A stretch of DNA of 64,000 nt from Candidatus Omnitrophota bacterium (GTDB lineage Bacteria > Omnitrophota > Omnitrophia > Omnitrophales > JACROU01), in the NCBI GenBank assembly GCA_029261035.1, contig JAJDCD010000010.1, forward strand, positions 124,001-188,000. Reading direction: 5' to 3'. The notes under the pieces are model-generated. The model searched no databases and was not told the DNA's origin. It saw nothing but the letters and a program-made list of their open reading frames with translations. How positions within the stretch are numbered: the stretch's first letter is position 1; every line of letters begins with the position of its first letter. A program made the position numbers and the translations under genes. This document shows positions 3,001 to 50,631 of this stretch, one piece after another.

Positions 3001-5220
3001 TGTACGTGTCGTTAATCTATCTTTGAACGCCGAAACTGAAGACAAACTCTTGTGTAAGTTTGCATCAAAATCCGTTAAAGGTTCCGTTGCAGAAAAACTA
3101 TCAACAGCAGTAATATTTCCTTGAGCATCTGTTTGAAATTCGGTAATCCCAGTAATTTTTCCAGCGGTGTTAACCGTTAAGCTTCCTACAGGGTTTCCAT
3201 CAGAATCAAGAAACGTTCTTCCGGTTCGTTGATCTTTAAGAGCATCTACATTCGCAAGACTATTATGTGCCGCTGAATCAAAATCAGGTAATGGCTCTTG
3301 AACAGTAAAGCTTTCGACGAATAAAATAGTCCCGTCGGAGTCTGTTTCAAATTCAGAAATAGAAGCAAGTTTGCCGTTCTCATCAACCGTAATACTTCCC
3401 GAAGGGTTCCCTTCGCTATCCAAAAAGGTTCGAGAGGTCTGACGGTCTTTCAAGGGATTTAAACTAGCTAAACTTCCATACGTATTAGCATTAAAATCTT
3501 GAAGAGGTTCGGTAACAGAAAATGAATCTACATATAAAATATCTCCTTGAGCATCTGTAGTAAATTCACTAACCCCACTCACTTTTCCGTTCTCATCAAT
3601 GGAAGCACTGCCTGTTGGATTTCCGTTGACATCAATATAGGTTCTAGAAGTTTGACGATCTTTAAATACAGAAACACTTGCCATAGAAGTAAAAGTTAAC
3701 CCATTGAATACAGGCGATGGTTGAGTGACCGTAAAAGAATCAATAGAGGTTATATCTCCATTTGCGTCTCGATTAAATTCAGTGATATCACTTATATTTC
3801 CACTCCCATCAATAGCAAGACTGCCTAAAGGATTTCCATCTGTGTCTAAAAATGTTCGCGTGGTTAATTGCTGAGTCAAACCCAAGGCAACACCAAAATC
3901 TTGAAATGTTACTGCATCAAAATCTTGAAGAGGCTCGATCATTAAATAATTATCTACTAATATAATGTTGCCATCTGCATCTGTTTGAAATTGACTAACG
4001 CCACTCACCTTACCCGAAGCATTAATGGTAATGTTTCCAATAGGGTTTCCATTCGGATCTAAATAAGTGCGATTTGTTTGACGATCCCGCAGCGTCGTAC
4101 TGCTAGCCAATGTAGGGTAAAGAGCTCCGTCAAAAGTAGGTGCGGGTTGCGTTAATGAAAAAGCATCAATATTCACAACATTGCCATTCGCGTCTGTTGT
4201 AAATTCATTAATTCCAGAAACTAATCCATTGGTATCGATAGCCACGTTACCAATAGGGTTTCCATTGCTATCTAAATAAGTCCGAGTCGTCAGCCTATCT
4301 TTAAGAGGTGATAAACTAGCCAAATCCTTATGAACGGCTGAATCAAAATTAGGTTCAGGACTCACAATAGAATAAACATCAATCGCTGTGATATTGCCAT
4401 TGACGTCTGTTACAAACTCATTTATTCCACTCACTTTTCCATTGGCACCGACCGAAACATTAGCAATAGCTGTTCCGTTCACGTCCAATAAAGTCCGATT
4501 AAAAGAACTGTCTTTGAATCCTACTACGCTTGCAGGCGCTGTATGAATTCCAGCATCAAACAATGGGAGCTGTCTTCCCAATTGATTCACATCTTGATCT
4601 ACAATCGCAAAGTTATCTACAGCAATAACATTCCCATTCGCATCTATCACAAACTCCGTAATACCTGAAATACGATCCGTCACATCAATAGAAATACTAG
4701 AAATCGCATTCCCTTGAGCGTTGACAAAGGTACGATTACTTAAAGTTCCTTGAAAAGATCCAATGCTCGCTAACGTCGTATGAACAGCTGGATCAAAATT
4801 AGGTAATTGGACTCCCGGTTGATTTAAATCTTGATCCAAAACAGTGTAAACATCAATGGCAACCGTATTCCCATTGGCATCCGTCACAAACTGATTGATT
4901 CCAGCAATTTTTCCATTTCCATCCACAGACAAAGTGGCAACGGCATTTCCACTTCCGTCCAACAAAGTACGCGTCGTTACATTCCCTTGCACAATTCCAA
5001 AACTAGCCAAGTCAGTAAATGTTGTTGGATCATATTGAGGTAAATCTAATTGAGGCGTTGAAGGATCTTGGTCTACAATAGAAAGATTATCGACTGAAAC
5101 CACATTTCCATTGGCATCGGTTCCAAATCGAGAAGCCCCACTAATTTCTCCATTTTCATTAATGGTAAAACTAGCAGCCGCCGTTCCATCTGGATTAAAA
5201 AAAGTAAAGCCTTGAGGTTT
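1..5220 (-). repeat. 24 tandem coding repeats of about 213 bp (71 residues)
   Basis: Equivalent points recur every 213 bp (for example 871, 1084 and 1297). Consensus elements of a unit, in order: FLDxDGNPxGSI, GKISGISEF, TDAQGNI, VDSFSV, EPLxDFD, LASV, LKDRQTTRT. The first three units (nearest 5200) are more diverged and carry a short insertion (DQDxxxPxxxLP). Units nearer the window edge are more alike. Each unit has two or three Asp/Asn-Gly turn motifs (DxDGN, DxNGK, DAQGN), which suggests repeating beta-hairpins. The series continues past the left edge. Confidence 0.9.
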
Positions 5221-8006: not shown

Positions 8007-10052
8007 TTAAATCACCCCCCTTAAAATTACGCTAGAAATATTTTTGATAGAAAAATGAATGTCCATTTTGGGCATCTCCCAAACGGATTGAAGAGAAAAA
8101 AAGAGAAAAATTGAATGAATCATACATCTGATATAAGTATAACTGATGGAAAATAAACTGGATTGTGTCAAAAAAGAAAAAGAATGACTGGCGTCATTCC
8201 ATGAGGTAGGTCGAACAATAGAAGAAAACAAATTAGAAGTTTCAACTATTGGCCCAGCCCGAACTTCAACCTCACTTAATTGCGGCAAAGCATAAAAGGT
8301 CCGGTCTTTATCTAAAGAGAGCGATTCCTTTTCAGCCTTCAATGTTTCTAATAAAGATTTTTTCATTTCTATAAAATTGCTGGTTGCAGAAATAACGGCA
8401 AATAATAAATTTTGAACCCAACGAATCGGCTGAGGAAGTAAATAACCTATAGAACTTACAGAGTAAACCCACTGCTTAACCGTATTTCCTTCAGCATCAT
8501 ACTCAGCAGCATACTCTGGTTGAGACAAACCTTTTTCTGAAGAATAAAAAGTTGATTCATAAACAGAAGAGTCCAAACGAATTCCCTTACGTGTATCTAT
8601 CTGCATTAAGTCCCCATTAGGATTTAATGTGTAATCATCACGAAATTGCAATTCACGATGCTTGTAGCTTAAAGTATAACGAATTTGTTCTTCGTTGAAT
8701 TTTCCTTTTAAAAAAGTGCTCTTGTTATCTGAATTATTCTCGGTATCCACACGCTTCAAAATACCGTTGGAATCATAATGAAATACTTCCTGCAAAATTT
8801 GTTTTCCAGACTTCCCATCGAAGTGTTGTGAAGAAGAAGGTTTTCCATCGTTGAAAAAAGTTTTTTCTATCAAAGGTGCTTGTTGAGTATTCAGCCCATC
8901 ATAAGTCTCAGATCGCAACAAATTCCCATTCTGAGAATAATGAAATAAAGTAACTTGAGGAGACTGTTTTTGATCATAGTCTATTTGAAAAAGAGCTTTT
9001 TCACTTCCCACATTTCCTTCATAAAAAATTCTCTTAAATATAAACCCATTTTCAGAATTATCTTTTTGGTAAGCCATTTCTTCAATTGCGCCTTCTTCAC
9101 CATAAACTAGATTGATTACTGCTCTAAGAATCCCTTTATTACTGTACTTTAAGACTTTAACAGGTTGATCATTGTGATAATGCGTCAACTCCAACCTTAC
9201 CCCATCCGCGCTCTTCTTCTCAGACTGCATCAACGATTGCGTTCTAGGATTGTAGTGATTCACAAGAACAGATCCGTCTAAGTTAGAAACGTAAACCTCT
9301 GCAGAATAGTTTTCTTGGGTATCTAAGTTCTCATTAAATGTTTTTGACATTTTAGGCGACTGCGTTTGCCCTTCAGATTCCAACACCTGAAATGTAATCT
9401 TCTGATTCTTAAAGTCTTTAACAATAACCGTTGTTTGGCGAGACTCCCCTGATCCGTAATGGTTAAATGTGGCTGTCTCTAACAACTCTCCCGACATCGT
9501 ATTATAAATATGATACGAAGCAAGCTCTCCATTTTCCAAATAAGCATAACTTCTTTTAACTCCTTGAGGATTTAAAAGACTAATCAACTGCTGTTCTTGA
9601 TTGTATATTGAGGTGACACCCAAACCATCAGTAATAATGGTTGTTTCAACATTTCCATCTTTATCAAAAGTATAATTATAAAGAGTTAAATCGCCAACCC
9701 CATCTGAAGTATAACGAATGCGCCCTGCCATATCTTTCTCAGTATAAAACCCAGTGACGATGCCAAAAGAATCTACTAGCTCTGTTACATTCCCTTGAGC
9801 ATCAAATTTAATTTTTGAATCGGTTGCATTTGTAGAAATAGTTTCGGAAGAAAGTTCTACTGGATTTAAAGTTTCATTTAGAATGAGAGGTGAAGACAAA
9901 GAAATGACCGGAGCAGGTTGCAATGCCGCTGGAATAAATGCATAACCTACAGAAACTTGCCCCAAAAATAAAGTGAAAGCAACAAATGTTGCGAGACTTC
10001 TTTTTGAAAACAAACCGCAGTTGAGAAATGACTTTTTTGTTTTTATATTCAT
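8007..10052 (-). CDS. Exported YD/Rhs-like repeat protein
   Basis: 681 residues, ATG at 10052, first gene of an operon with the giant repeat protein. Residues 1-40 are a signal peptide: basic start (KTKKSFLNC), hydrophobic core (ATFVAFTLFLGQVSVGYA), then a likely cleavage after GYA. The rest contains Rhs/YD-like units (FDAQGNVTELVD, YTSDGVGDLTLYNY, YDSNGILKRVD, YDAEGNTVKQW). There is a short hydrophobic stretch near 545-560 (YLLPQPIRWVQNLLFAVIS). The last 50 residues (from about SLFSISYTYIRC) lose the repeat character and are hydrophobic, as if the original C-terminus was lost or the frame was altered. The terminal residues GVI are encoded by the Shine-Dalgarno of the next gene. It resembles the N-terminal half of its neighbour, so the pair may derive from duplication. 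Function unknown; probably cell surface. Confidence 0.8.
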   Translation of the reverse strand: MNIKTKKSFLNCGLFSKRSLATFVAFTLFLGQVSVGYAFIPAALQPAPVISLSSPLILNETLNPVELSSETISTNATDSKIKFDAQGNVTELVDSFGIVTGFYTEKDMAGRIRYTSDGVGDLTLYNYTFDKDGNVETTIITDGLGVTSIYNQEQQLISLLNPQGVKRSYAYLENGELASYHIYNTMSGELLETATFNHYGSGESRQTTVIVKDFKNQKITFQVLESEGQTQSPKMSKTFNENLDTQENYSAEVYVSNLDGSVLVNHYNPRTQSLMQSEKKSADGVRLELTHYHNDQPVKVLKYSNKGILRAVINLVYGEEGAIEEMAYQKDNSENGFIFKRIFYEGNVGSEKALFQIDYDQKQSPQVTLFHYSQNGNLLRSETYDGLNTQQAPLIEKTFFNDGKPSSSQHFDGKSGKQILQEVFHYDSNGILKRVDTENNSDNKSTFLKGKFNEEQIRYTLSYKHRELQFRDDYTLNPNGDLMQIDTRKGIRLDSSVYESTFYSSEKGLSQPEYAAEYDAEGNTVKQWVYSVSSIGYLLPQPIRWVQNLLFAVISATSNFIEMKKSLLETLKAEKESLSLDKDRTFYALPQLSEVEVRAGPIVETSNLFSSIVRPTSWNDASHSFSFLTQSSLFSISYTYIRCMIHSIFLFFSLQSVWEMPKMDIHFSIKNISSVILRGVI

Positions 10053-10353: not shown

Positions 10354-13300
10354 ATGTTTAAAAAACTAGCACAAAAAATCCATATTGGAGTTGCACTCTG
10401 CTTAGTGGTCTGCCTGAGCATCCCACCAGAGCTATATGCAATCGCCCCGGAATTAGCCTCACAAAACAGCTCTGCCCGGCAAGCAATTATCAACGAGCTT
10501 TCCCAAGGATCTCAACAAACTCCTGTAGGCTGGCTACACGAAGCGGGTATCATCCCTGACCATGACACTATTGCTGCTCACTTATTAGCTCAAGCCTTAT
10601 TAGAAACAGACACACAAAGAAGAGCTCAACAGCTTCAAAACATCGAGAGAAGTACTCTGAATAGACTGGTTACCCGACTAGGCATTGATACCACTGCAAG
10701 CTCTGCAATCATAGCAGCACTAGAACAACTCGAATTAGACCAACCCGATTCAATGGTAAACACAATGGAGATGCTATTCGATGCAAAAGAAGGAGTTTTA
10801 AATCAGCCCGAAGTCATTGCCGCCGCCTCATTAGGAGATGAAACCAACGATGTACAGCTAGAAAGAATTCTTGCTCAAAAAATAAAATTAGAAAAATATC
10901 AACACGGTCTCGAAAACTTAAAAAGAAGCCTAGAACAAATTCTTCAAGGCAAGAATCTAAAACAACGCTTTAGTCTTCGAACAACTCCTTGGAACACTTT
11001 CTTAAACCAACTCAGCAGTCTCAATTTTGACTTAAATCAAGGTAAACACGTAAGTCCTCTAGTAGAAATCACGACAACCGCTTCTCTAGCAAAAGCCATA
11101 GCAGATGTTTATATCGACACAGCTTCACAACAAAGAAGAGATGAGGAACAAATAAAAGCAGAGGCCAATCACGATAGAATAAAAGAATCACTAAAACAAA
11201 TAGATGATTTCCTCAAAAAAAGCTCTGAATCCATTAGCGCCCTAAACCTTTCTGCCTGGAAAGTAGGATTTGCTTGGCCTATGATTAAAAGCTATCTTCT
11301 CCTTCGAAGAGCCAAATCTTATTTCCAAAGAAATCCAAACGCAAGAAAAGTCCTTTTCATAGGCTCTATGTTTGGACTAGCTCTTACCGTACTAACAATA
11401 GCTGTTGTCAGTGTAAAAGACGTTCGAACAGAAATTCAAAAAAGAGAAGAAAACAAAAGCACCCTTGAATCGATTCCAAAGATTACAGACTACATCAATC
11501 AGGTTCGGACTCGCTTTGGTTTACCTCCAATAAGTCCTGAAGAATCAGATGCCCTTAAAAGCAGAATTCAATTAGAGCGTAATGGATTTGCTTTGATCGA
11601 TGCAGAAAGAAGTGCTTTACTTGAAAGCTATTTTAAGAATACCGTCTCTGACAAAACTTTTTTTGGGGAAGAATCCTTACCATTCCAAAACATTTCTTCT
11701 TTACAACTTTACAGCTCTAGAATTACTCCTGAAACTCAAAATGCTCCATACGCTCCTTTTTTACAAGGGCAAAGAAAAATAAAGTTTAAAGGCTCCAGCG
11801 GACAAGAAAGAGAATTGCTCGGTTATATTGTTCGAGGTCTTATAGAAATGCGCTACCGTTTAGGCTTGCCTCGTTTTACTCTAAGAGAATTTGAAGAAAC
11901 TTACAATCATATTGATAGAAATAAAATACCTCCTATTCGCTATCGAGATTTTCTATTCAACCTTTCTACTCAAGAAGGGCTCGATCCTAAAAAAGATCTT
12001 CTTCCACCCATTCAAGCTCGCTCTTTAGGTACGGAAGAAGAACAAAGCTTCAATGAACTAATCACTGCTTATGAACTGCTAGACAACACAACAAGATCCT
12101 TCTTCCGAATTAAAAAATTTAATTTCAATGAGATTTTAAGTTATATCAAACAGTTAAAAGCACAACCTCGAATCCCTTTCACTGGCAGAATCTTAAGCTA
12201 TGTGTATGTTCCAAAAGCAACAAGCGAAGAATTGAAAACTACCTTTTGGGGAAGACGTCTTAACTCTATTTATGAGCCCCCAAAGAAAAAACTACGCGTC
12301 TCTTTCTGGGGAGTCCATGACTCCTGGGAAAGAGCCGTTCAAAAAACAGAAAATTTTGTAGAGCCTCTTTCTCAAATCGCAATTCAGGAACCTTTAGCCA
12401 GCCTTACCACCTTTGATCCAATGATGACGGCTATCCAAGAACTATTTCGATTTCAAATCGAAGAATCTATTATTGCGGATAAGTCGCTCGTTAAATCGGC
12501 ACGTATGTTATTAGAACGTTTTGAATTTAGTCCAGAACAAAAAGAAAAATTTAATTTTCTTCTTTCAGGAATCCCTATTCCGGATGGTAGCCTCATAAAA
12601 GATATTAAATTTTCAGCAAGTCAGAATAACGCTATCAAAGAATTTTTAGAAACTGTTGGCTTAAGTAAATATAAAGGCGCAGAAGAAAAAGAGAAAGTTC
12701 TTAAACAAAGAAAAGTCTTGGCCATTGCTTTATCACAAGAAGATGACGAACCTATCATTGTAAAAAAACCTATTTTCATGTCTCAAATACAAGCAAATAC
12801 AGAGGCTTTAGAAAAAGCCGAAAAAGCTATCAAAGAATTTATAACAGAAGCAAAAGCAAAGAAAAAAGAAATTCAAGCTGCAATTTTCAAGAGCCATAAA
12901 TTAGCTAATCTTAAAAGCGCCCTGTATGGAAGAAGAAGTATTGTTTATCGATTTTTCAGCCAATTAAAAAGTGAATTTGCTCAAGGTGGAATTCTGAAAA
13001 AAGGAGGTATGATCACTCTTATTGGTGTTCCTATTTTATTTGTTGTTTTCGGGTTCACTTCTGCATTTATAGCAAAACGCAACAAAGACCAACAAGCTCT
13101 AGAGTTTCGATTAGAAAGAGAAAAAACACAAAGAGAAGTTCAAGCCTATCTCGGACAGCTTCAAACGTATTATGGTAGTAACAATATGAGCAACAAAGAT
13201 CGAGAAGCTGCCTATCAAAAATTTCTCAATGACAATAGCTCGGCTCCATTCCGCCAAGCAGAAGTAAATTCTATTTTAAATGGATATTTTTCTAATCAAA

Positions 13301-14463
13301 TACCGGACAGCAGCTTCTTTGGAAGCAGTCCCCTATCTCCTCAAGCAACACCTTCACTCAATCTTAGAGGGGAAAATGTCAATCCCTATTCAGCCCCTTT
13401 ATTACAAGCCTTAATCCAAAGAAGAGACCTTTCTTATACGGATAGTTCTGGAAGAACACATCGACTTAAAGGACACATCACCAATTTTATTTTAAGACTC
13501 TGGAACAAACATTCTCCTCAACGCAGATTAAGTTTCCCTGAGTTTCAAGACATTCATGAAAAAGTAAGAACCGGTCAGTGGAAAATGTTTGAGTTAGATC
13601 AAAGAATTCGTCAGCAAGCACAAGGGAATAGTTTAGGAGACAGCTCCTCAGCCAATTCATTAGGAAGTAGAGATTTCTTTGTTAATACGGCTTTTGCCGC
13701 TATCGGAATCGCTGCGAACCATAGAAAGCTAGGGTCTTCATTAGAAAAGCAAGAAGATCTCTATAAAAATGCAACTGGAAGATTAAACTCTGCTAGCAAA
13801 GAAGAACGCGCCGAAATTCAAGACGCTTTGGCTTGGGCACTGGCTCAAAACAGTCTCGTTCGCCCTACTCCCGACACAACGGTTCACGACATTTTACCTT
13901 TAGAAACACTCATCGAACCATCAGCACTTCAAAAAGCAAACGAAATTAAACTCACTGAAGTAGTACGAATTTTAGGAGCTCTTCCAAAAACAACGGTACT
14001 TCACATTGTTTCAGAAAAAGATTCTCTAATCAACTTACTGACACCAAACTCTCCTCTTTCAGAACAATTAAAATCAGACATAAGAGGACAACTATCGCGG
14101 GCCAACATTAGTGAAAAAACAGGGCCTTTTGCTTCAAACTCCAATCGCATTCTCCAACGCCTAAAACGCAAAGGAGCTTTGGTTGCCCATGATAAAGCAA
14201 CCTTGCAAAACCAAGTCTTTGACACCAACATCTTAGCCCTTTTCGACATCAAACAATTCGGTTACCTAGAAGGCTTAAGCACAGCCATCCTCAACATACT
14301 AGGCCGCCTAGCAACAGAAAGAGATCCTTCAGCCTACCTCTCTCAACTAGCAGAATATGGCATCCGAAAAGAAGGCCTACTCATCCTAGTAGACCTAGAA
14401 CAATTCCTAAACCAAATCGTCGCCGACTTCAAAGCAAAACGCAAAGTCGCCATAGCAGCATAA
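10354..14463 (+). CDS. Large exported/membrane protein with internal duplication
   Basis: 1369 residues, family not recognised. Residues 1-32 form a signal peptide (IGVALCLVVCLSIPPELYA). The body is mostly alpha-helical and rich in Gln, Lys and Glu. Two transmembrane segments are clear: about 332-356 (VLFIGSMFGLALTVLTIAVV) and about 884-910 (ITLIGVPILFVVFGFTSAFI). Each is preceded by a basic helical stretch and followed by a related block: about 357-530 and about 911-1085. Matching landmarks are YFKNTVSDKTFFG versus YFSNQIPDSSFFG, then APYAPFLQ versus NPYSAPLLQ, then LPRFTLREFEETYNHI versus RLSFPEFQDIHEKV. The C-terminal third (about 1100-1369) contains NSLG repeats and a helical domain rich in Leu and Ile. 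It stands alone on the plus strand between two minus-strand blocks. Function unknown; a cell-envelope scaffold or sensor is possible. Confidence 0.85.
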   Translation: MFKKLAQKIHIGVALCLVVCLSIPPELYAIAPELASQNSSARQAIINELSQGSQQTPVGWLHEAGIIPDHDTIAAHLLAQALLETDTQRRAQQLQNIERSTLNRLVTRLGIDTTASSAIIAALEQLELDQPDSMVNTMEMLFDAKEGVLNQPEVIAAASLGDETNDVQLERILAQKIKLEKYQHGLENLKRSLEQILQGKNLKQRFSLRTTPWNTFLNQLSSLNFDLNQGKHVSPLVEITTTASLAKAIADVYIDTASQQRRDEEQIKAEANHDRIKESLKQIDDFLKKSSESISALNLSAWKVGFAWPMIKSYLLLRRAKSYFQRNPNARKVLFIGSMFGLALTVLTIAVVSVKDVRTEIQKREENKSTLESIPKITDYINQVRTRFGLPPISPEESDALKSRIQLERNGFALIDAERSALLESYFKNTVSDKTFFGEESLPFQNISSLQLYSSRITPETQNAPYAPFLQGQRKIKFKGSSGQERELLGYIVRGLIEMRYRLGLPRFTLREFEETYNHIDRNKIPPIRYRDFLFNLSTQEGLDPKKDLLPPIQARSLGTEEEQSFNELITAYELLDNTTRSFFRIKKFNFNEILSYIKQLKAQPRIPFTGRILSYVYVPKATSEELKTTFWGRRLNSIYEPPKKKLRVSFWGVHDSWERAVQKTENFVEPLSQIAIQEPLASLTTFDPMMTAIQELFRFQIEESIIADKSLVKSARMLLERFEFSPEQKEKFNFLLSGIPIPDGSLIKDIKFSASQNNAIKEFLETVGLSKYKGAEEKEKVLKQRKVLAIALSQEDDEPIIVKKPIFMSQIQANTEALEKAEKAIKEFITEAKAKKKEIQAAIFKSHKLANLKSALYGRRSIVYRFFSQLKSEFAQGGILKKGGMITLIGVPILFVVFGFTSAFIAKRNKDQQALEFRLEREKTQREVQAYLGQLQTYYGSNNMSNKDREAAYQKFLNDNSSAPFRQAEVNSILNGYFSNQIPDSSFFGSSPLSPQATPSLNLRGENVNPYSAPLLQALIQRRDLSYTDSSGRTHRLKGHITNFILRLWNKHSPQRRLSFPEFQDIHEKVRTGQWKMFELDQRIRQQAQGNSLGDSSSANSLGSRDFFVNTAFAAIGIAANHRKLGSSLEKQEDLYKNATGRLNSASKEERAEIQDALAWALAQNSLVRPTPDTTVHDILPLETLIEPSALQKANEIKLTEVVRILGALPKTTVLHIVSEKDSLINLLTPNSPLSEQLKSDIRGQLSRANISEKTGPFASNSNRILQRLKRKGALVAHDKATLQNQVFDTNILALFDIKQFGYLEGLSTAILNILGRLATERDPSAYLSQLAEYGIRKEGLLILVDLEQFLNQIVADFKAKRKVAIAA

Positions 14464-41116: not shown

Positions 41117-41152
41117 GAAATAGAAAAGGCCTGAGCTCTAGAGCTCAGGCCT
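41117..41152 (-). terminator. Terminator of the 2291-residue fusion gene
   Basis: AGGCCTGAGCTC (41127-41138), TA, GAGCTCAGGCCT (41141-41152): a perfect 12-bp stem, followed on the minus strand by TTTTCTATTTC. It lies 28 bp after the stop codon at 41181. Confidence 0.85.
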
Positions 41153-41180: not shown

Positions 41181-44100
41181 TTACGCCGAAATAAGAATGC
41201 GAAGCTGTGCATGTATCTCAGTAACCCATCGAGCCACCATATCATTCAAGAAACTATCCCGCATATGGAATATAGAATCAATTTGATCGAGCTTGTCTGG
41301 ATGCGGATTCGTAATCGGTGTTGCTAAGAAATCAAGCCCAATATCAATAGCGGCAATTCTAGCAACCAAACGATTCTCATCTCGAACAGAGTCGAGACTG
41401 TTCCCTCGGATTACTTGATCTGAAGAAATCTTTCGAACCCCTTTAACAAAAACACCTTCTAAGTCAACCGATGGCGCAACAACAACAACTTGTCCTTTAG
41501 GAAAACGTGCTGTTTGCATCGTAACAAAAAACTCAAGAGCTTCCGCAACTGTTTTACGACCCACTTTTTGAAAAGTGATAAATTTATTTTTTACTTCTGG
41601 ATCCACTTTTAAGTTCTTAAGAACACTAAGAACTCTATCTTTTGTGCTATTATTTGGCACCAAGAAAGCAATATTCTTTTTGTTTGGGCCTCTTAATGCG
41701 AGCGCAACAGGAATTAAAGTTTCTTCTAACACCTTCTCTGAAACATCTCCCAAAGGAAGTACAAGTTGTCCAGGTAAGCTACTGGTACTTTTATTAAAAA
41801 TTCGAAGAGCTGCTGCTTTTGCATCTAATGTAACTGGCGAAATTTCAATACTTGTTGGATCTAACAAAGCAGTTCCTGAAATAGTAACAGACGTTGTGAT
41901 CGAATCGCCCAAGCTACTTGCGACAGCTAAATTTGTTTTCTTAGCAAACAAACTAACCAAACCCTGAATTTGTCTTTTAGCACTAGAATCCTCTATCTCA
42001 ACCTCTTGTATGGCATCTAAATGATATTGCGTAAATTTTGTAGGCGCTTTTGCCAACAAACTTCTAAGAGAAGTTAATAGATGTCGTAAATGTCCCACAC
42101 TTCTAAAATTTTGCAATTCTGTAACAAGTCCATCTACTTTTGCTACTGTAATCTCTTCCGGAGCTAAAGTCTGCCTTGCAGAAGACCCTCTCTCTTTTTT
42201 ATGACGATGATCTCTAAGATGATCATTTCTCCGTCCTAAGCTATCGGCAGTAACCTCTTCTAAAATTTTTGCTACAGCTGATTTAGCTTGAGGAGTTACA
42301 AAAACTTGATTTACACCTAGGCTAGAAGCAGATAAAGGTTTCGCTGAAATAGGTGTAATATCTTCCTCTCCCACAAACATGGTAAAAAATCCGGAGTTTC
42401 TTAAACTTTCTTTTGCACCTGCCAACAACCTGTTTTCTCCACTTTCAATAAGTGGAATTCCTGCCTCTAACATTTGCTTTTTATTACGAGCAAGCAACAT
42501 ATTTCTTGCATCCATAATCACAGGAACTTCAACTCTACGACCACCAATCACAACACTTTTAATAGGTTCCATTATTTGATGCGCTTCCACTAAATCTAAA
42601 TTTTTTATTTCGTCCCAGTCCGTCATGAGCGCTATCAAGTTGCTTCCCTTAATTGCTTGTTTCATCGTTTTCGCAACTTCCACCTTATCGTCAAACTTAA
42701 CAGTAATTAAACGTTTCCATCCCTTTTTAACAATTCCTTCAATTTCTCTTTGGGTTAAATTTAAACTTACTGTATCAACATCCGCATCATATTTATCTTC
42801 ACCCCTACTACCAGACAAAACTTGATTCCGTACTTGTCGCAACAACCCTGATATATCTTTATCTAAAATACTCATATCTTCTTTTAAAATCTGGTACGTA
42901 AAATCAAATACAAAGTTTTGTTGTGCTTCTTCTAAAGGATCATGAAAAGAAACCGTTGCTCCCAAATCCAATAACTCTCGGATCACAACCATCGAACGCG
43001 TTTCACGAACATCGTCTGTATTCGCTTTAAATGCAAGTCCTAAAACACCAATACGAACACCCTCTAATGGGAGATCTGTATTTTCTGCTACATCTCCTAT
43101 CGAAGCTAATGTGCTTTTGATTTTACCCACAACAACCATAGGTGCTCGTCCGTTTGTTGAAATCGCTTTCTCAGCAATTTTAAAATCAACTCCACTTTCT
43201 TTAGCACGATAAAGAGCTTCAGCGGTATCTTTAGGAAAACAAGAGCCTCCATACCCTGCTCCAGCAGCCAAAAATGCTGCATTAGGGTTACGAACATCAT
43301 TTTTCATGATACGAACTACTTCTTGATAAGAAGCTCCAACTTCTTCACTCAGCCAAGCAAGTGCATTTGCAAAAGAGATACTGATAGCCAACCAAACATT
43401 GGCCGAATATTTAATCATAGGCGAACTTTTACGGTCTGTCACAACTACAGGATGCTTGTGCCGTGCCTGCAAAGGAGCCCATAACTCTTGTAATTTTTTT
43501 GATGCGAATTCTGATTCCACACCAAATACATTTCTGTCTGGATTTAAAACATCGTGAACCGCACTCCCTTCTCTTAAGAACTCGGGATTACTTGCGATAT
43601 CAAAATGGCTCCCTTCTTTAAGATCCATTTCAACTAGAACTTCTTTCATTTTATCGAACGCAATTGGAGGTACTGTTGACTTCACAACAATAACTTTCCT
43701 TCTAGGAGTTCTTCTGTCACTACTCCTTAGATTACTTTTAATACCCCAACCAGCAGTTCTTGTTGCTGAAAGTAAATAAGCTAAATTAGCTTCCCCTTTA
43801 TTAGGTCCTTCTTTAATTTCTGGAGTTCCAACTGCAATATAAATAATATTAGCATCATGAATCGCTGCTTCAGCACCACTGCTATAGAACTCCGACTCTT
43901 CCAATGGAGAATGTTGAAAGTGAAGTCGCCCATCATCACGATTCTTTTTTACCAATTCTTCTAATCCAGGCTCCCAAATAGGCAGCCTTACTTCGGGTTG
44001 ATTAAGCCCTTCAATCTTATTTCTATCGATATCCAGAGTCGTAACATCATGACCCAAATCAGACAAAACAGTTCCTGTAATTAATCCCACATAACCCGTT

Positions 44101-47100
44101 CCGACCATAACCACTTTTTTTCTATCTACAGCTGCAGGATCGTCAAATTTTATAACCTTGTCCATATTGGCTCTATCTTTAACCTTTTTAAAACTAGGAC
44201 CAACAGAAGGACGGCCTAAGCTAAGGTAGTTAATCCCTACATCTGCTACTTCCGTAAGAGAAACTTCCTGAGTTCCATCAGATTGGCGACCAAAAATATT
44301 ACGCCCATCAAAAAGAGGCTTTAGTTTCAAAACTCTCTTCATCTTTTGTAACCCAATATTGCGAATCACATCATGATCCGCTGCAATCACCACTGCATTA
44401 CTTTTTCGGATAGCCTCTTCTGGAGAGTCTACAAACTCAAAAAAGTTTACGTTTAATCGACTTCTAATAATTTTATCCAACGATGTATCTTCTCTAGCTT
44501 CCGTAACCCATTTCATAAACTCTTCTTGAACGTCAGGGTCATAGATATAAATTTTCTTAATTCCTTTAGCCGCTAACCACAACACTAAATCTTTAGCAGG
44601 GGAAGCTAGCAAACGCGCTCCATTTCCTTTAAAAGCAACTCCTAATAACGCCATCTTAATATCTGAAACTCTTTTTCCACTTATGGTCGACATATTTTGA
44701 TCGATCATAGATTTAAACCAATCAATTTGCGCATTATTAGAATCGCGCACCTCTGTAACACCATGAAATGCGAGTTGAGGTGGTAAAACATCATTTTCCC
44801 CAGCCCTTTCATTTCGCTTAAATAACTCATCAAATTCCGAGGCCGCTCTTTCTAGAAAAGCTCTTAACTTTCCCCCAAAAGCAAAAGAAGGACTAATATT
44901 ATGCAACCCCACACGCCTATCCAAACCAGCACCAAACGCAACCATTCCCATATCTCCTTTTAACTTACGTACAACTTGTGCAATCGTATTAAAAGAAGCA
45001 AGCTTGGTACCCAAATAAGAGAGAATTCCCAAGTAGCCCAACTCCGCACTCGCAGAGTCCGTCACAACAAACATTTTTTCATCTAAGCCTTTCGGAAAAA
45101 GAAGCGCTTTCAAACTTTCCTTTGTGTTTTCTTGAGCTTGTTTCAAATTTCTAAATTTATCTGCATCATCTTCATCTACAATCGATTCCACCTTAGGAAA
45201 TCCTAAAATCAACTGCTGACTATTCATATCCTCGATTTGAGATCCTTTACGCAACAACTCTGGAGCGTACACAACCGTAAAATTATCATCCTCTCCACTA
45301 ACATCATAAATCGTCTGCATAATATTTTCTGTTCGTCCTGTAGGCATATGGCTTCGAACAATAAATGTTTTATGACTTCGATCTCCCAAAGCTCTGAGCC
45401 TCTTTAACGCTTCACCAAATCCTCTACTACGCTGATTGACAACTTTCTCAAATCGATCCGCATCTTTGTCTAAGAAAAGACCCGCATCAATCATAATGAC
45501 ATTATGTTCCTCTAAAACCATAATCTGTGCAATTTGATATTTCAACTCTTTAAGCTTTGCACCCGATCCTTGTAAAACAGATGAATAAAAAAGATCCTCT
45601 TTTATACTAATTAATGTTGGAGTCACTTCTCCACTATGTCCAAAGAGCACTTTTTCTTGAATAAAATCTTTTATCCAAGTCAAATGCTTCTCAATCTGGA
45701 TCATTCTTTGCGTAAGAACCTCGTCTACAGTCTGTTCTCCTAAGTCCAATTGCTGCAAACCTACTTTGTCATCTAATTTCTGTAGTTCTTTAACTTTTAT
45801 TTTTTCTACATTCAATTTCAACCTTAACCAATCCGAAACATCATCAATATTTATTTCTGTAATATCCGCATCTTTCTTTCCTTGTAAAATAACCTCAGAT
45901 CTTCCTGGTTCATGGTTCTTTGAATTTGCAGAATCCAAATTTCTCTGCGTATCATACCAATCAATCGAGATCTGACGCCCTGCATCTGTTGCTCTTTTAA
46001 GCAACACAGCACTCGTCGTTACACCCACATCACCAACACCCCAAAAAGCAATTTTTTCTATTGGGGTTATTTCAGTAACCACCTGATCAGCACCCAAAGA
46101 TGCCGCCGTAGAAACGGAAACATCCACCCAAAGACTAGACTGATTTGGGCCTAAAAATTGAACACGCAACTTATCGCCCTCTTGAGCCGTAACTTTTGCT
46201 GACGTTAAAGACGATAAAGCTGTGCCATCAAAAGCTCGTCTTCGAAGAAGAGAGTTTGCTCGTCTTTCTAAGCCGCGTTGATAAGCTTTAGAATCTAATT
46301 GATAAGCAGAAGATACAGGTTCTGTAACCAAAGATCGAATTAACATGTGCCCTAAAGTTTCCGGAGCATCCAAAGAGTTCCTTGTTAATCGTGCTGCGAT
46401 TGAAATTTTATTTAATTCTGATTTAATAAATGCATCTGAATTAATTTGATCTTTTCCTAAAATTAAATTTAAATATTCATGCGCTTGCTCAGACAACTCT
46501 GCTTTTGGACGAATAGATAAGAAGGAAACATCTTCTTCTGTAAGTTTTTGCTGAATTCCACCACCATGAAAACCACCAGTAATAAGAACCGCCTTTGATT
46601 TACGTTCTTGCTTCAAGAAAGAAAGAGACTTTTGAATCATCGCACCTTCTCGCTCGCGAGCCACTTCATAAAAACGAAGCGCACGATCGAAAAACGAATC
46701 CTCCAATTGAGACAAGAGAGAAACTCTATTTTCCATCTCTCTTTGAATCGTTTGGATCTTTTCCGTTAGTAAAGAAGGCTTCCAGTCAGAAGCTAAAGAT
46801 TGAATTTTTTGAGCTTCATCACGACTTAATTCGAGCTTAAATAATTTTTCATAAAGATTAATAGTTTCATCTGCTTTGAAAATTTGTTTTTCCAACCGTG
46901 TTTCAAGAAGAGCTTCAGCAATGCTATTTTCCAAAGCACTTTTCTCCTGAAACAAATCAGACCCTACTAATTCTTTTTGATAAATAAGTTGACGAACCAA
47001 GGAGGGTAATACCTTACTGCGATCTAATGAAAACTCATATTCTTCTGCAGCACTCCAAAGAAGCTCAAAATAACCTCTTGGATCTTGAAACAAAAGTAAA

Positions 47101-48056
47101 TCACTTTGAGAGCTTGCATTCAATGAAGGAACTCCCTGTCTTAAGGAACTCCAATTTTCTGACAAAATCTTTTTAAACGGATTACTTTCTGGGATTTTAG
47201 TTAAAAGAAGATGTTGAATGTATAACCATTCTTGAGCCCAAACCTTAAGATCAATATCCTTACTTTCTCTTTCAAGGGTAAATAGCTTACGAATATTCTT
47301 TAAATCAAGAGGCGAGGCTACATATTTCTGTTCCAGTTCATTTAAATGTCTTAAATAATTTAATAAGTGCAGTTTTCCATTTTCAAACTCGCTCTTTTTC
47401 TGATCCCATACCCGTAAATCACCTAAATAAACTTTATCTTTTGCTTTTTGAATCTGGGTTTTCCACTGACCCACTGCCTTGAGCGCCTGTGGAGAGAATT
47501 TGTAAATTTCACGAAAAAGCTTTAAATTTTCTTTGTATAACTCAGGGTTCTCCACCCCTAACACTTTAACTTTTGATTGTTTCTCAATAGCAAAAACTTC
47601 AGCCGCTGAAAATTGTCCTTTTTTCATCCAACGATGAGCAGCACTTACATTCATTTTCGCATCAGGGAATAAGTTAAAAAGACTAGAATCAATAGAACTA
47701 TCGGCCCCTTCAACAAAAACAACGTCAACACCTTCTGTTCGATAAAGGTAATCTAAAATTTGTTTAATTCTATTTTGCGTTCCTAAATGAGCATGCGCAT
47801 CTTCCAAATGATAAATTTTCATTCTTTCTTGCTTTGTTTGATAAGCATCAACAACAAAGCCTAATTCATTTGGGAAACCAAAAGAAGAAGACATGGACTG
47901 TTGTGTAACTGAAGGGGTGCTTACAAACACCTCGGCCCAAGCAGGATTAACTCCTGAAAAAATCATAAAAAATGCCAATGCTAAGGAAAGCATTTTCATA
48001 ATCATCTTCTTTTTTAAAGTTTTTAATCTTCTTCGCATAAGTTTTTCTTCTTTCAT
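41181..48056 (-). CDS. Exported fusion: ChaN/TraB-like domain, two UDP-glucose dehydrogenase-like modules, unknown C-terminus
   Basis: 2291 residues from ATG 48056. Signal peptide near 20-45 (MLSLALAFFMIFSGVNPAWA). Residues about 50-560 resemble the ChaN/TraB/erythromycin-esterase-like fold: IYHLEDAHAHLGTQNRIKQI, DVVFVEGADSS and AVLITGGFHGGGIQQKL. Module 1 (about 665-1250) has a nucleotide-binding GVGDVG and a late KMALLGVAFKGNGARL, but where the catalytic cysteine should be it reads SPSFAFGGKLRAF (about 1050), so it is probably inactive. Module 2 (about 1310-1780) is complete: VVMVGTGYVGLITGTVLSDL, STVPPIAFDKM, NPEFLREGSAVHDVLNPDR, GAGYGGSCFPKD (about 1600) and VRIGVLGLAFKANTDDVRET. Residues 1900-2291 contain SSLG motifs and an unknown domain. 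UGDH makes UDP-glucuronate in the cytosol, so export is puzzling. Single gene with its own promoter. Confidence 0.85.
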   Translation of the reverse strand: MKEEKLMRRRLKTLKKKMIMKMLSLALAFFMIFSGVNPAWAEVFVSTPSVTQQSMSSSFGFPNELGFVVDAYQTKQERMKIYHLEDAHAHLGTQNRIKQILDYLYRTEGVDVVFVEGADSSIDSSLFNLFPDAKMNVSAAHRWMKKGQFSAAEVFAIEKQSKVKVLGVENPELYKENLKLFREIYKFSPQALKAVGQWKTQIQKAKDKVYLGDLRVWDQKKSEFENGKLHLLNYLRHLNELEQKYVASPLDLKNIRKLFTLERESKDIDLKVWAQEWLYIQHLLLTKIPESNPFKKILSENWSSLRQGVPSLNASSQSDLLLFQDPRGYFELLWSAAEEYEFSLDRSKVLPSLVRQLIYQKELVGSDLFQEKSALENSIAEALLETRLEKQIFKADETINLYEKLFKLELSRDEAQKIQSLASDWKPSLLTEKIQTIQREMENRVSLLSQLEDSFFDRALRFYEVAREREGAMIQKSLSFLKQERKSKAVLITGGFHGGGIQQKLTEEDVSFLSIRPKAELSEQAHEYLNLILGKDQINSDAFIKSELNKISIAARLTRNSLDAPETLGHMLIRSLVTEPVSSAYQLDSKAYQRGLERRANSLLRRRAFDGTALSSLTSAKVTAQEGDKLRVQFLGPNQSSLWVDVSVSTAASLGADQVVTEITPIEKIAFWGVGDVGVTTSAVLLKRATDAGRQISIDWYDTQRNLDSANSKNHEPGRSEVILQGKKDADITEINIDDVSDWLRLKLNVEKIKVKELQKLDDKVGLQQLDLGEQTVDEVLTQRMIQIEKHLTWIKDFIQEKVLFGHSGEVTPTLISIKEDLFYSSVLQGSGAKLKELKYQIAQIMVLEEHNVIMIDAGLFLDKDADRFEKVVNQRSRGFGEALKRLRALGDRSHKTFIVRSHMPTGRTENIMQTIYDVSGEDDNFTVVYAPELLRKGSQIEDMNSQQLILGFPKVESIVDEDDADKFRNLKQAQENTKESLKALLFPKGLDEKMFVVTDSASAELGYLGILSYLGTKLASFNTIAQVVRKLKGDMGMVAFGAGLDRRVGLHNISPSFAFGGKLRAFLERAASEFDELFKRNERAGENDVLPPQLAFHGVTEVRDSNNAQIDWFKSMIDQNMSTISGKRVSDIKMALLGVAFKGNGARLLASPAKDLVLWLAAKGIKKIYIYDPDVQEEFMKWVTEAREDTSLDKIIRSRLNVNFFEFVDSPEEAIRKSNAVVIAADHDVIRNIGLQKMKRVLKLKPLFDGRNIFGRQSDGTQEVSLTEVADVGINYLSLGRPSVGPSFKKVKDRANMDKVIKFDDPAAVDRKKVVMVGTGYVGLITGTVLSDLGHDVTTLDIDRNKIEGLNQPEVRLPIWEPGLEELVKKNRDDGRLHFQHSPLEESEFYSSGAEAAIHDANIIYIAVGTPEIKEGPNKGEANLAYLLSATRTAGWGIKSNLRSSDRRTPRRKVIVVKSTVPPIAFDKMKEVLVEMDLKEGSHFDIASNPEFLREGSAVHDVLNPDRNVFGVESEFASKKLQELWAPLQARHKHPVVVTDRKSSPMIKYSANVWLAISISFANALAWLSEEVGASYQEVVRIMKNDVRNPNAAFLAAGAGYGGSCFPKDTAEALYRAKESGVDFKIAEKAISTNGRAPMVVVGKIKSTLASIGDVAENTDLPLEGVRIGVLGLAFKANTDDVRETRSMVVIRELLDLGATVSFHDPLEEAQQNFVFDFTYQILKEDMSILDKDISGLLRQVRNQVLSGSRGEDKYDADVDTVSLNLTQREIEGIVKKGWKRLITVKFDDKVEVAKTMKQAIKGSNLIALMTDWDEIKNLDLVEAHQIMEPIKSVVIGGRRVEVPVIMDARNMLLARNKKQMLEAGIPLIESGENRLLAGAKESLRNSGFFTMFVGEEDITPISAKPLSASSLGVNQVFVTPQAKSAVAKILEEVTADSLGRRNDHLRDHRHKKERGSSARQTLAPEEITVAKVDGLVTELQNFRSVGHLRHLLTSLRSLLAKAPTKFTQYHLDAIQEVEIEDSSAKRQIQGLVSLFAKKTNLAVASSLGDSITTSVTISGTALLDPTSIEISPVTLDAKAAALRIFNKSTSSLPGQLVLPLGDVSEKVLEETLIPVALALRGPNKKNIAFLVPNNSTKDRVLSVLKNLKVDPEVKNKFITFQKVGRKTVAEALEFFVTMQTARFPKGQVVVVAPSVDLEGVFVKGVRKISSDQVIRGNSLDSVRDENRLVARIAAIDIGLDFLATPITNPHPDKLDQIDSIFHMRDSFLNDMVARWVTEIHAQLRILISA

Positions 48057-48075
48057 CAAAATTTTTTGTCCCGTA

Positions 48076-48308: not shown

Positions 48309-49403
48309 TTAAACACTAAAGCGAAAAAACATGATATCACCATCTTTTACTTGGTATTCTTTGCCTTCCAGACGCATAAGCCCCTTCTCTTTAATGCCTT
48401 TTTCAGAGCCTAGTTCGTTTAATGCGGTGTAGTCAAATACCTCAGCCCGAATGAAACCTCTCTCGAAGTCCGTGTGAATTTCTCCAGCGGCCTGAGGCGC
48501 TGTCACAAGGTTTTGTACGGTCCAAGCTCGAACCTCTTGCTTTCCTGCAGTAAAAAAGGTGATTAACCCTAAAAGACTGTAACCCGTGCGAATAAGCTGG
48601 TTCAGACCGGACTCTTCAAGGCCCATATCTTTCAAAAACTCCACCTTCTCATCTTCTTCCAACTCAGCAAGCTCAGCTTCCACTTTTCCAGACACCACAA
48701 CCACCTGGGAATTCTCTTTTTCCGCCAACTCTCTTACTTGCTGAACCAAAGGCCCACCTTCCGGTAAATCATTTTCATTAACGTTACAGCAGTACAAAAC
48801 AGGCTTGGATGTTAAGAGCTGAAGGTCTAATAACACTTTTTTTTCATCCTCAGACAAACCTTGTTTTCTAACAGGAGTTCCATCTTCAAGACTTTCTTTC
48901 ACTTTAACGCAAACTTCTTGCTGCGCTTTAGCATCCTTGTCTCCAGTCCGTACTAGTTTTTCATTTCTTTCTACACGCTTAGTCACCGTATCTATGTCTT
49001 TAAGACATAGTTCTGTATCAATAACCTCGATATCCCCGACAGGATCCACCTTGCCTGCAACATGCACAATATCATCATCTTCAAAGCAACGCACCACATG
49101 AAGAACAGCATCTACCTCTTTAATGTTTCCTAAAAACTGATTTCCTAAACCTTCTCCTCTACTCGCTCCTGCAACTAAGCCTGCAATATCAACAAACTGC
49201 ATCGAAGTAGGCGTTATTTTATCGGGTTGGTATATTTCAACTAAACGATCCAATCGCTTATCCGGGACAGAAACAATTCCTACGTTCGGTTCTATGGTAC
49301 AAAAAGGATAATTCGAAGCGCCTGCTCCTGCTTTAGTCAACGAGTTAAAAACAGTCGATTTTCCTACGTTCGGTAATCCTACAATTCCACATTTAAATCC
49401 CAC
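48309..49403 (-). CDS. ychF: YchF-family GTPase/ATPase
   Basis: 364 residues from GTG 49403, with AAGGAG six bases upstream; the longer in-frame start at 49466 lacks a ribosome site and runs into the AT-rich repeat. TRAFAC class Obg-like P-loop protein: GLPNVGKSTVFNSLT (G1), PFCTIEPNVG (G2 region), FVDIAGLVAGASRGEGLGNQ (G3), and CCNVNEND (G4 with Asn-x-x-Glu, the YchF form linked to ATP preference over GTP). A coiled coil lies in the middle, and a C-terminal TGS domain (REVRAWTVQNLVTAPQAAGE, DFERGFIRAEVFDY). Involved in ribosome-related and redox stress functions. Downstream of a second paralogue. Confidence 0.93.
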   Translation of the reverse strand: MGFKCGIVGLPNVGKSTVFNSLTKAGAGASNYPFCTIEPNVGIVSVPDKRLDRLVEIYQPDKITPTSMQFVDIAGLVAGASRGEGLGNQFLGNIKEVDAVLHVVRCFEDDDIVHVAGKVDPVGDIEVIDTELCLKDIDTVTKRVERNEKLVRTGDKDAKAQQEVCVKVKESLEDGTPVRKQGLSEDEKKVLLDLQLLTSKPVLYCCNVNENDLPEGGPLVQQVRELAEKENSQVVVVSGKVEAELAELEEDEKVEFLKDMGLEESGLNQLIRTGYSLLGLITFFTAGKQEVRAWTVQNLVTAPQAAGEIHTDFERGFIRAEVFDYTALNELGSEKGIKEKGLMRLEGKEYQVKDGDIMFFRFSV

Positions 49404-49426
49404 AGAAATCTCCTTATCAAAATTTA

Positions 49427-49534
49427 AAAATAAAAAGTATAAAGTAAAAACTATGGACACATCCAAATATTTGGATGTGTTTATTTTTAAATTTTAAATT
49501 ATGGTTTTTAATTTTTACTTTAAAATTTTGAATC
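49427..49534. repeat. AT-rich long inverted repeat between the two ychF genes
   Basis: Arms AAAATTTAAAAATAAAAAGT... and ...AATTTTTACTTTAAAATTTT, with a perfect central hairpin ACACATCCAAATA-T-TTGGATGTGT. Same family as those at 17533 and 23928. Confidence 0.75.
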
Positions 49535-49536
49535 TC

Positions 49537-50631
49537 TCACACATTAAATCTAAAGTGAACAACATCCCCATCTTGAATTTCGTAATCTTTTCCTTCTACT
49601 TTAAAACAACCGTTTTCCCTAGCTTTTTGAAGAGATCCCGAATCAATTAAATCCTGACACTTTACAACCTCTACCCGAATGAAGCCTCTTTCCATATCGG
49701 AGTGCACATGCCCCGCAGCCTGAGGAGCCTTCGTTTCTTTAGGAACGGTCCAAGCCCGAACTTCACCATGGTCATGGGTAAAGAAAGTAACCTTATCCAA
49801 AAGTTCATAACCCATATGCACCACTTTAGCAGGCCCTGATTTTTCAAGTAAAAACTCTTCTATAATTTCTTCCTTTTTCTCCGCATCTTCCATTCGGGAC
49901 ATCTCTTCTTCAAGAATGCCACATAGATATACAATTCGAGACATATCCTCCTCAGAAAAAGCATTTAACTCTTTTTCCCACTTCCCTCCGCCCGGCAAAT
50001 CATCTTGGCTTACATTAACGCAATATAAATAAGGTTTGATTGTAAATAACTGAATATCTTTTAAGGAGTGTACTTGTTCATGCGTAAGATCCAAATGTCG
50101 AATCGGATGACCACTTTCCAAAGCATCTTTTAATCCATGCAACAAATCAAAAAGATCTTCATCAAATTTTCCTGAAGCTTTCTTTGCTTCGAGCTTGGCA
50201 ATGCGTCGCCCAACGGTTTCACTGTCTTTATGAATCAGTTCATTATTTACGATCCGAATATCGCGCATGGGATCAATGGAACCTAAAAAGTGAACGGCAT
50301 CTTCACTGTCAAAAATTCGAACTACATGAAGTAATACATCTACATCTCTAAGGTGAGAAAGAAATTGGTTCCCCATTCCCTCTCCTTTAGAAGCTCCTTC
50401 TACCAAACCCGCCACATCCAAAAATTCCAAATGGGCCCGAACTACGTGTTTCGGATCAATAATCTTAACGATTTTTTCCAGCCGCTCATCCGGGACAGGA
50501 ACAACCCCTTTTTTAGGTTGAATCGTAGAAAAAGGAGCAATTGAGATTTCCTCTTTTCCATTAGCTAAAGTATTAAAAATCGTGGTCTTACCTACATTAG
50601 GCAACCCCACAATTCCACAACGAAAACCCAT
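49537..50631 (-). CDS. Second YchF-family paralogue with altered G4 motif
   Basis: 364 residues, same length as its neighbour. Contains GLPNVGKTTIFNTLANG (G1), APFSTIQPKKGVVPVPDERL, FLDVAGLVEGASKGEGMGNQ (G3) and the TGS domain (GEVRAWTVPKETKAPQAAGH). The G4 motif reads CVNVSQDD where YchF has NxxE and classical GTPases have NKxD; a Gln at this position would change base recognition. The body is clearly homologous to the downstream gene but diverged (for example NGKEEISIA where the neighbour has KAGAGASNY). Having two complete YchF genes side by side is unusual, since most bacteria have one. Upstream gene of the pair, ATG at 50631, probably co-transcribed. Confidence 0.88.
   Translation of the reverse strand: MGFRCGIVGLPNVGKTTIFNTLANGKEEISIAPFSTIQPKKGVVPVPDERLEKIVKIIDPKHVVRAHLEFLDVAGLVEGASKGEGMGNQFLSHLRDVDVLLHVVRIFDSEDAVHFLGSIDPMRDIRIVNNELIHKDSETVGRRIAKLEAKKASGKFDEDLFDLLHGLKDALESGHPIRHLDLTHEQVHSLKDIQLFTIKPYLYCVNVSQDDLPGGGKWEKELNAFSEEDMSRIVYLCGILEEEMSRMEDAEKKEEIIEEFLLEKSGPAKVVHMGYELLDKVTFFTHDHGEVRAWTVPKETKAPQAAGHVHSDMERGFIRVEVVKCQDLIDSGSLQKARENGCFKVEGKDYEIQDGDVVHFRFNV

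Follow-up and report, generated by a model that had tools for sequence, protein, structure and literature searches.

An open reading frame (ORF) on the reverse strand of the window, by which we mean the whole stretch of 64,000 nucleotides analyzed here, places a UDP-glucose dehydrogenase (UGDH), by type a cytosolic enzyme that depends on NAD, behind a predicted signal peptide. The initial annotation described the product as an exported fusion of an inactive and an intact UGDH module with a ChaN/TraB-like domain and an additional C-terminal domain, and left three readings side by side: a pseudo-enzyme scaffold, nucleotide-sugar chemistry at the membrane or in the periplasm, or a membrane anchor that leaves the body of the protein inside the cell. 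Why should such an enzyme be carried on a chain of this kind, and is the arrangement peculiar to this locus?

Results

Layout of the window ORF and state of its UGDH modules

The ORF is real, and its features are collected in Table 1. Module 2 matches the N-terminal, central and C-terminal UDPG_MGDP_dh domains of Pfam as well as TIGR03026 (E 8e-123), and retains the catalytic Cys at residue 1607 (in GAGYGGSCFPKD), Lys 1550 (IKYSAN), the Thr of VGTP and the Glu of SNPEFLREG, in line with the earlier description of an intact enzyme. Module 1 has indeed lost the catalytic Cys, as had been noted, and its Lys and Thr are gone as well. In two orthologues from one and the same family (L105 and L130), the Cys is likewise kept in module 2 and absent from module 1, which indicates that the pair of pseudo-enzyme and enzyme is maintained and is not decaying. 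Elsewhere, the genome encodes three ordinary stand-alone NDP-sugar dehydrogenases.

The hairpin 3′ of the stop codon (Table 1) suggests that transcription of the UGDH ORF ends there. An adjacent pair of genes (48309-49466 and 49537-50631, both on the reverse strand) is predicted to encode two YchF-type GTPase-like proteins. Toward the other end of the window lie two exported-looking proteins on the reverse strand, both without linker motif, one running off the window (1-8004) and one with a YD-repeat-like sequence (8007-10052).

Table 1. Positions of the UGDH ORF, its domains and linker motifs, and a second motif-bearing protein in the window.
Feature	Position	Strand	Details	Basis
Whole ORF	41181..48059	-	2292 aa; TTG start at 48059, next start ATG at 48056, stop 41181-41183	
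Signal peptide	47934..48056	-	residues 2-42, likely cut between AWA and EVF	sequence and common layout in 45 paralogues
N-domain	46458..47912	-	residues 50-534, TIKI/EreA/ChaN fold	alignment, AlphaFold2 model
Linker motif 1	46092..46106	-	AASLG, residues 652-656	sequence
UGDH module 1	44175..46064	-	residues 666-1295, inactive (Cys, Lys, Thr lost)	Pfam, alignment
UGDH module 2	42378..44132	-	residues 1310-1894, intact; Cys1607 at 43239-43241	Pfam, catalytic residues
Linker motif 2	42315..42329	-	ASSLG, residues 1911-1915	sequence
Linker motif 3	42234..42248	-	ADSLG, residues 1938-1942	sequence
Linker motif 4	41907..41921	-	ASSLG, residues 2047-2051, in low-confidence linker ahead of the C-domain	sequence and model
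C-domain	41184..41783	-	residues 2093-2292, Rossmann-like alpha/beta, C-terminus ILISA	alignment, model
Terminator-like hairpin	41127..41152	-	11 bp stem, 3′ of the stop codon	sequence
Second protein of the class	10354..14463	+	1369 aa; signal peptide, 4 AxSLG, C-domain ending KVAIAA, no N-domain	sequence

The N-terminal head defines a large family

A whole-protein search of the same genome revealed that residues 20-540 of the window protein recur in dozens of ORFs ranging from 500 to 16,199 aa. We retrieved 45 of these ORFs, the window ORF included, which total 139,919 aa and occupy about 420 kb of the 2.70-Mb genome (about 15.5%). The N-domain occurs once per ORF and is always N-terminal (45/45). 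A hydrophobic stretch lies at the matching position in all 45 paralogues, 43 of them above an arbitrary hydropathy threshold and two borderline, and the predicted signals are built of n-, h- and c-regions, with small residues at the putative cut site. A start near residue 50, the condition under which export had been expected to fail, would remove this family-wide signal.

The homologue search proposed by the initial annotation found the N-domain family in all 39 genomes of the same order that were searched, some with more than 40 copies and with ORFs of up to 35,113 aa, and in 85 of 145 genomes of the phylum. The best 80 matches of a 12-row alignment profile in the named genome collection all belong to Omnitrophota. 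Outside the order, stand-alone N-domain proteins of 518-550 aa also occur and are likely the ancestral form. Members of the family are often found near one another on a single contig and strand (for example G000:C21:31000-155000 and C16:6000-153000), which suggests local expansion.

A short linker motif is enriched in the cargo

Among the tripeptides of all cargo, SLG stood out, with 268 occurrences against 89 expected. In its longer form, [AG]xSLG, the motif has 208 copies in 117,325 aa of cargo and a single one in 22,594 aa of N-domain, while permuted versions occur 5-11 times each. Its density is 1.8 per 1000 aa in cargo versus 0.1 in a control set of 375 other ORFs taken from 20 genome stretches and the window (about 460 kb of genome), which hold 23 copies in 138,208 aa, or 15 in 129,571 aa once three ORFs with at least two copies are set aside; two of these three encode exported proteins that also end in the (A)A tail. 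Within the family, 44 of the 45 ORFs carry at least one motif and 41 at least two; the median distance is 93 aa from the N-domain to the first motif, 415 aa between consecutive motifs and 261 aa from the last motif to the C-terminus.

The codons used for SLG are mixed (56 different 9-mers), and selection therefore keeps the motif as protein. Ser codons at the motif are AGY-biased (75% versus 33%), so that motif copies probably share ancestry.

The motif also occurs in proteins that lack the N-domain, such as the second protein of Table 1, and its use is thus independent of an N-domain in cis. A protein of 602 aa (L274 3633-5442, reverse strand), which appears exported and carries one SLG just past the signal peptide, another at 425 and the tail IARAA, represents a minimal version of this layout. 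An ORF of more than 6,666 aa, extending beyond the retrieved stretch (L269, G000:C18:1-20000), has two motifs and looks like a different, repeat-rich giant.

Motifs lie at module borders and change between families

None of 87 motifs falls inside a Pfam domain against 11.3 expected, a result not equalled in 20,000 random placements (P<5e-5), in a test that covers the 14 proteins with Pfam-recognized cargo and 4,475 aa of domains, many cargo segments having no Pfam match. In L081, GDSLG ends two residues ahead of an alignment that begins at residue 2 of carbamate kinase; in L082, the point at which GASLG ends corresponds to residues 2-4 of short homologues that consist of the macro domain alone; and in L093, phosphoglucomutase and UDP-glucose-pyrophosphorylase-like modules occupy neighboring motif-bounded segments.

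In four sister families, R[SA]E[LVA]R replaces AxSLG (94 versus 6 copies in f5, 27 versus 2 in f8, 17 versus 0 in f3 and 5 versus 1 in f7), and the two motifs are almost mutually exclusive: family f4 has 12 AxSLG and 0 RSExR, and the genome of the window 208 and 0. Some RSExR copies are identical in DNA. Sampling was uneven, f2, f6 and f7 being represented by 2,000-4,000 aa each, and f2 has neither motif. Neither motif is enriched in the sampled N-domain giants outside the order (f10, f14, f16, f20, f23, f28, f30 and f41); among these, L240-L250 (f10, f20 and f41) come from genomes whose N-domain matches, about 29-35 each, fall on giant ORFs that have neither motif. The L243 ORF carries a QQSEIYPIL-like repeat.

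The tandem UGDH unit illustrates the exchange. Its modules are flanked by SLG on both sides in the window and in G001, by RSEAR on both sides in G033 (f5), and by HSELR and RSELR, followed by the tail, in G008 (f7); in G031 (f5), at a contig end, the order is N-domain, RSELR, module 1. No linker motif lies between the two modules in any of these cases, and both therefore look like one product. The pseudo-enzyme idea of the initial annotation is partly borne out, since in three families the inactive module is conserved beside its active partner and is never separated from it by a motif; what that idea missed is the wider exported family. One giant ORF (L133, G035:C21) is an exception, in that it has the tandem UGDH, the tail ARSA and neither linker motif; it also carries an alpha-amylase and a phosphorylase/glycosyltransferase-like stretch, and may use a third linker motif.

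Cargo and C-terminal domain

Pfam scans of the cargo recovered enzymes (carbamate/amino acid kinase, exonuclease, phosphoglucomutase (PGM), UDPGP, parts of PPDK/PEP-synthase, five Ser/Thr kinase stretches, NUDIX and metallophosphoesterase), other modules (WD40, PAS-HisKA-HATPase-receiver, LRR and sigma-like helices) and one set composed of macro, histidine phosphatase and RrnaAD-like domains. Amylase, deaminase, transaldolase and HAD phosphatase were found in other families. Several modules keep catalytic motifs (HRD/DFG, TASHNP, GG..SH), and many segments have no Pfam match.

A C-domain of about 200 residues is related across most family members according to leave-one-out scores, which are mildly biased because each row under test was also part of the alignment; a few members do not outscore shuffled sequences, and the C-domain of the window itself scores low (8.0 versus 1.6). 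The extra C-terminal domain noticed earlier has a confident model with a Rossmann-like alpha/beta fold. Foldseek gave no significant match for it in the PDB, and structure alignment returned many Rossmann-like folds with Z about 7-8, none outstanding. All 41 complete family ORFs end in Ala and 33 of them in Ala-Ala, compared to 4 of 306 controls ending in Ala-Ala; as a guess, this tail could be a sorting or maturation signal.

The N-domain resembles the TIKI/EreA/ChaN clan

An alignment of 67 N-domains with a mean identity of 25% contains ten invariant residues (His89, Glu117, Gly168, Tyr175, Tyr464, Arg470, Gly495, Gly496, His498 and Pro518), and position 170 is Glu or Asp. The AlphaFold2 model (pLDDT 92.3) was aligned best by VIA-align to EreC (Z 9.2), ChaN (9.1), HopBA1 (9.1) and BcR135 (8.4), all of the TIKI/EreA/ChaN clan, a Z near 9 being only modestly over the background stated by the tool. 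Foldseek alone found a weak match without significance in the PDB (E 0.33), and a profile of the domain yielded only chance matches among PDB sequences. PF04187 (ChaN, Tiki superfamily) is matched weakly by 13 of the 67 members (best E 0.0011). The ChaN/TraB-like assignment of the initial annotation was thus correct.

The spacing of 28 between His89 and Glu117, constant in 67/67 sequences, equals that of BcR135 (His85-Glu113) and RRSP (His3902-Glu3930), the pairs being equated by spacing and motif and not by superposition. RRSP is a proven site-specific endopeptidase of the TIKI family (PMC6254334). The invariant His498, in GGFH, is a natural candidate for the second His of the 2His/2Glu set, by position in the motif and not by superposition on RRSP His4030. 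The first Glu of this set, which in RRSP stands two residues before the His, is not conserved in the 67 N-domains, where position 87 is Asp in 51 and otherwise Glu, Thr, Asn or Ser. Because the structural matches to the clan, the weak Pfam matches and the His-Glu spacing agree, the N-domain is likely a hydrolase; that it is a protease is plausible. The fold and the His-Glu pair are common to the superfamily, from which the N-domain differs by its length of about 490 aa, which includes a long helical insertion, its place ahead of giant cargo, its expansion to about 45 copies and its weak Pfam matches.

Discussion

These ORFs share an architecture of head, cargo and tail with a recurrent, lineage-specific border motif, and they take up about 15% of the genome. 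Our preferred explanation, to which the sequence evidence leads us to give roughly even credence, is that they encode Sec-exported polyproteins that are processed at or beside the lineage-specific linkers and release cytosol-type cargo outside the cytoplasm. The signal peptide would take out of the cytoplasm a chain composed, in order, of a hydrolase domain of the TIKI/EreA/ChaN fold, one to many cytosol-type modules and a C-domain ending in (A)A. A site-specific endopeptidase would then cut at or beside [AG]xSLG and leave cargo with near-native N-termini; the N-domain is a candidate for this protease, perhaps acting in trans. For the window, the predicted products would be the N-domain, a tandem pseudo-UGDH/UGDH enzyme, in which module 1 is probably a structural or regulatory partner of module 2, short linker peptides and the C-domain, and the enzymes would presumably work outside the cytoplasm. 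The giants of f10, f20 and f41 without motif, together with two motif proteins without N-domain, imply that the protease could be something other than the N-domain.

An ordinary periplasm would lack substrates for cargo that depends on NAD, ATP or UDP-sugars. We conjecture that exported enzymes that use ATP or NAD could be accounted for if they were delivered to a partner cell or into some enclosed compartment. Omnitrophota have been suggested to live as symbionts or predators. A polyprotein delivery system, in which Sec-exported chains with a TIKI-fold endopeptidase are cut at [AG]xSLG or RSExR and one signal exports sets of enzymes (UGDH, PPDK, kinases, PGM, macro) to an extracytoplasmic compartment or to a partner or prey cell, is possible in our judgment but somewhat doubtful.

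One objection to the cleavage reading is that the motif might serve for binding, or as a hinge that is left uncut. The exported giants might accordingly stay whole, with SLG and RSExR serving as flexible hinges or docking sites of a surface or periplasmic scaffold whose enzymes act, or display in an adhesin-like manner, while joined. Adhesins or coats have been suggested as roles of giant Omnitrophota ORFs (PMC10066038), and a motif that sits at borders and never inside domains is equally expected of an uncut linker or docking site. However, ordinary linkers keep no fixed short sequence, and a motif that ends at the native enzyme N-terminus and is swapped lineage-wide fits a specific partner, possibly a binder and not a protease; we regard uncut giants as rather unlikely, though as the main rival of the cleavage reading. 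The view closest to the initial annotation, a lone exported UGDH fusion devoted to nucleotide-sugar chemistry at the membrane or in the periplasm, with module 1 as a pseudo-enzyme scaffold and no wider system, is consistent with the intact module 2 and with the conservation of the tandem unit in orthologues, but its head, motif and tail are common to 44 other ORFs with unrelated cargo. It is improbable, and a stand-alone UGDH oddity was rejected on the recurrence of the head in 45 ORFs.

We attach equally little probability to an uncleaved N-terminal anchor, or to proteins mostly retained inside, with cargo working in the cytoplasm. The cytosolic type of the cargo (kinases, PPDK, PGM, UGDH, macro, NUDIX) would suit this reading, against which stand the three-part signals with small-residue cut sites, conserved ahead of the N-domain, and the existence of stand-alone N-domain proteins in other families. 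The plain anchor with a cytosolic body offered by the initial annotation is likewise disfavored by the 45 paralogues with a cleavable-looking signal in this position. A derivation of the motifs from DNA repeats, or from mobile elements that inserted in frame, is hardly credible: the AGY-biased Ser codons and the identical RSExR copies speak for it, but codons are otherwise randomized and N-domain regions are almost free of motifs, and a DNA-repeat origin was rejected on the codon evidence.

We know of no bacterial system with this combined anatomy of head, tail and linker motif, a judgment based on anatomy and on a limited literature search, which found no paper pairing polyprotein with Omnitrophota. 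Module 2 shares family and catalytic residues with UDP-glucose 6-dehydrogenase (TuaD) and NDP-sugar dehydrogenases; unlike TuaD, it sits behind an export signal, in tandem with an inactive copy and inside a larger chain. The polyproteins that Euglena and dinoflagellates target to their plastids, whose linkers are of the decapeptide or SPLR type (PMC3480386), also combine one targeting signal, several products and a short conserved linker, which there is the cut site; the mark of the SPLR type, a recurrent short motif at product borders, is found here at the borders of the putative products. Those polyproteins are eukaryotic repeats of one protein type, whereas the present chains are bacterial and join unrelated enzymes, with a motif that differs between families. 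MARTX toxins with RRSP (PMC6254334) are likewise very large secreted multi-module chains with a TIKI-fold site-specific endopeptidase, and they autoprocess; there, however, RRSP is an effector and not the processing protease, and the context is that of a toxin with an atypical type 1 system. Neither RTX repeats nor a cysteine protease domain, the hallmarks of MARTX, appeared in Pfam scans covering part of the segments.

Giant ORFs of Omnitrophota have been described as very long, common in class Omnitrophia, poor in annotated domains and poorly conserved in Velamenicoccia (Seymour et al. 2023, PMC10066038). Phylum and great length agree with our family, and the passages of that article cited here make no mention of the N-domain, linker motifs, C-domain or enzyme cargo. 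The shared head, tail and linker code provides a common anatomy for many of these giant ORFs, so far described as poorly conserved and functionally obscure. Each motif predicts the N-terminus of a product, testable by mass spectrometry. If true, the polyprotein reading would represent, to our knowledge, the first bacterial system in which numerous unrelated enzymes are exported on polyproteins cut at linkers; the two linker sequences in sister families would then allow one to ask whether motif and protease, or motif and binding partner, have co-evolved. It would also explain the presence of kinases, dehydrogenases and PEP enzymes behind export signals in Omnitrophota. Seen as a family, these proteins raise the question of a possible delivery system, where before there was that of a single odd enzyme.
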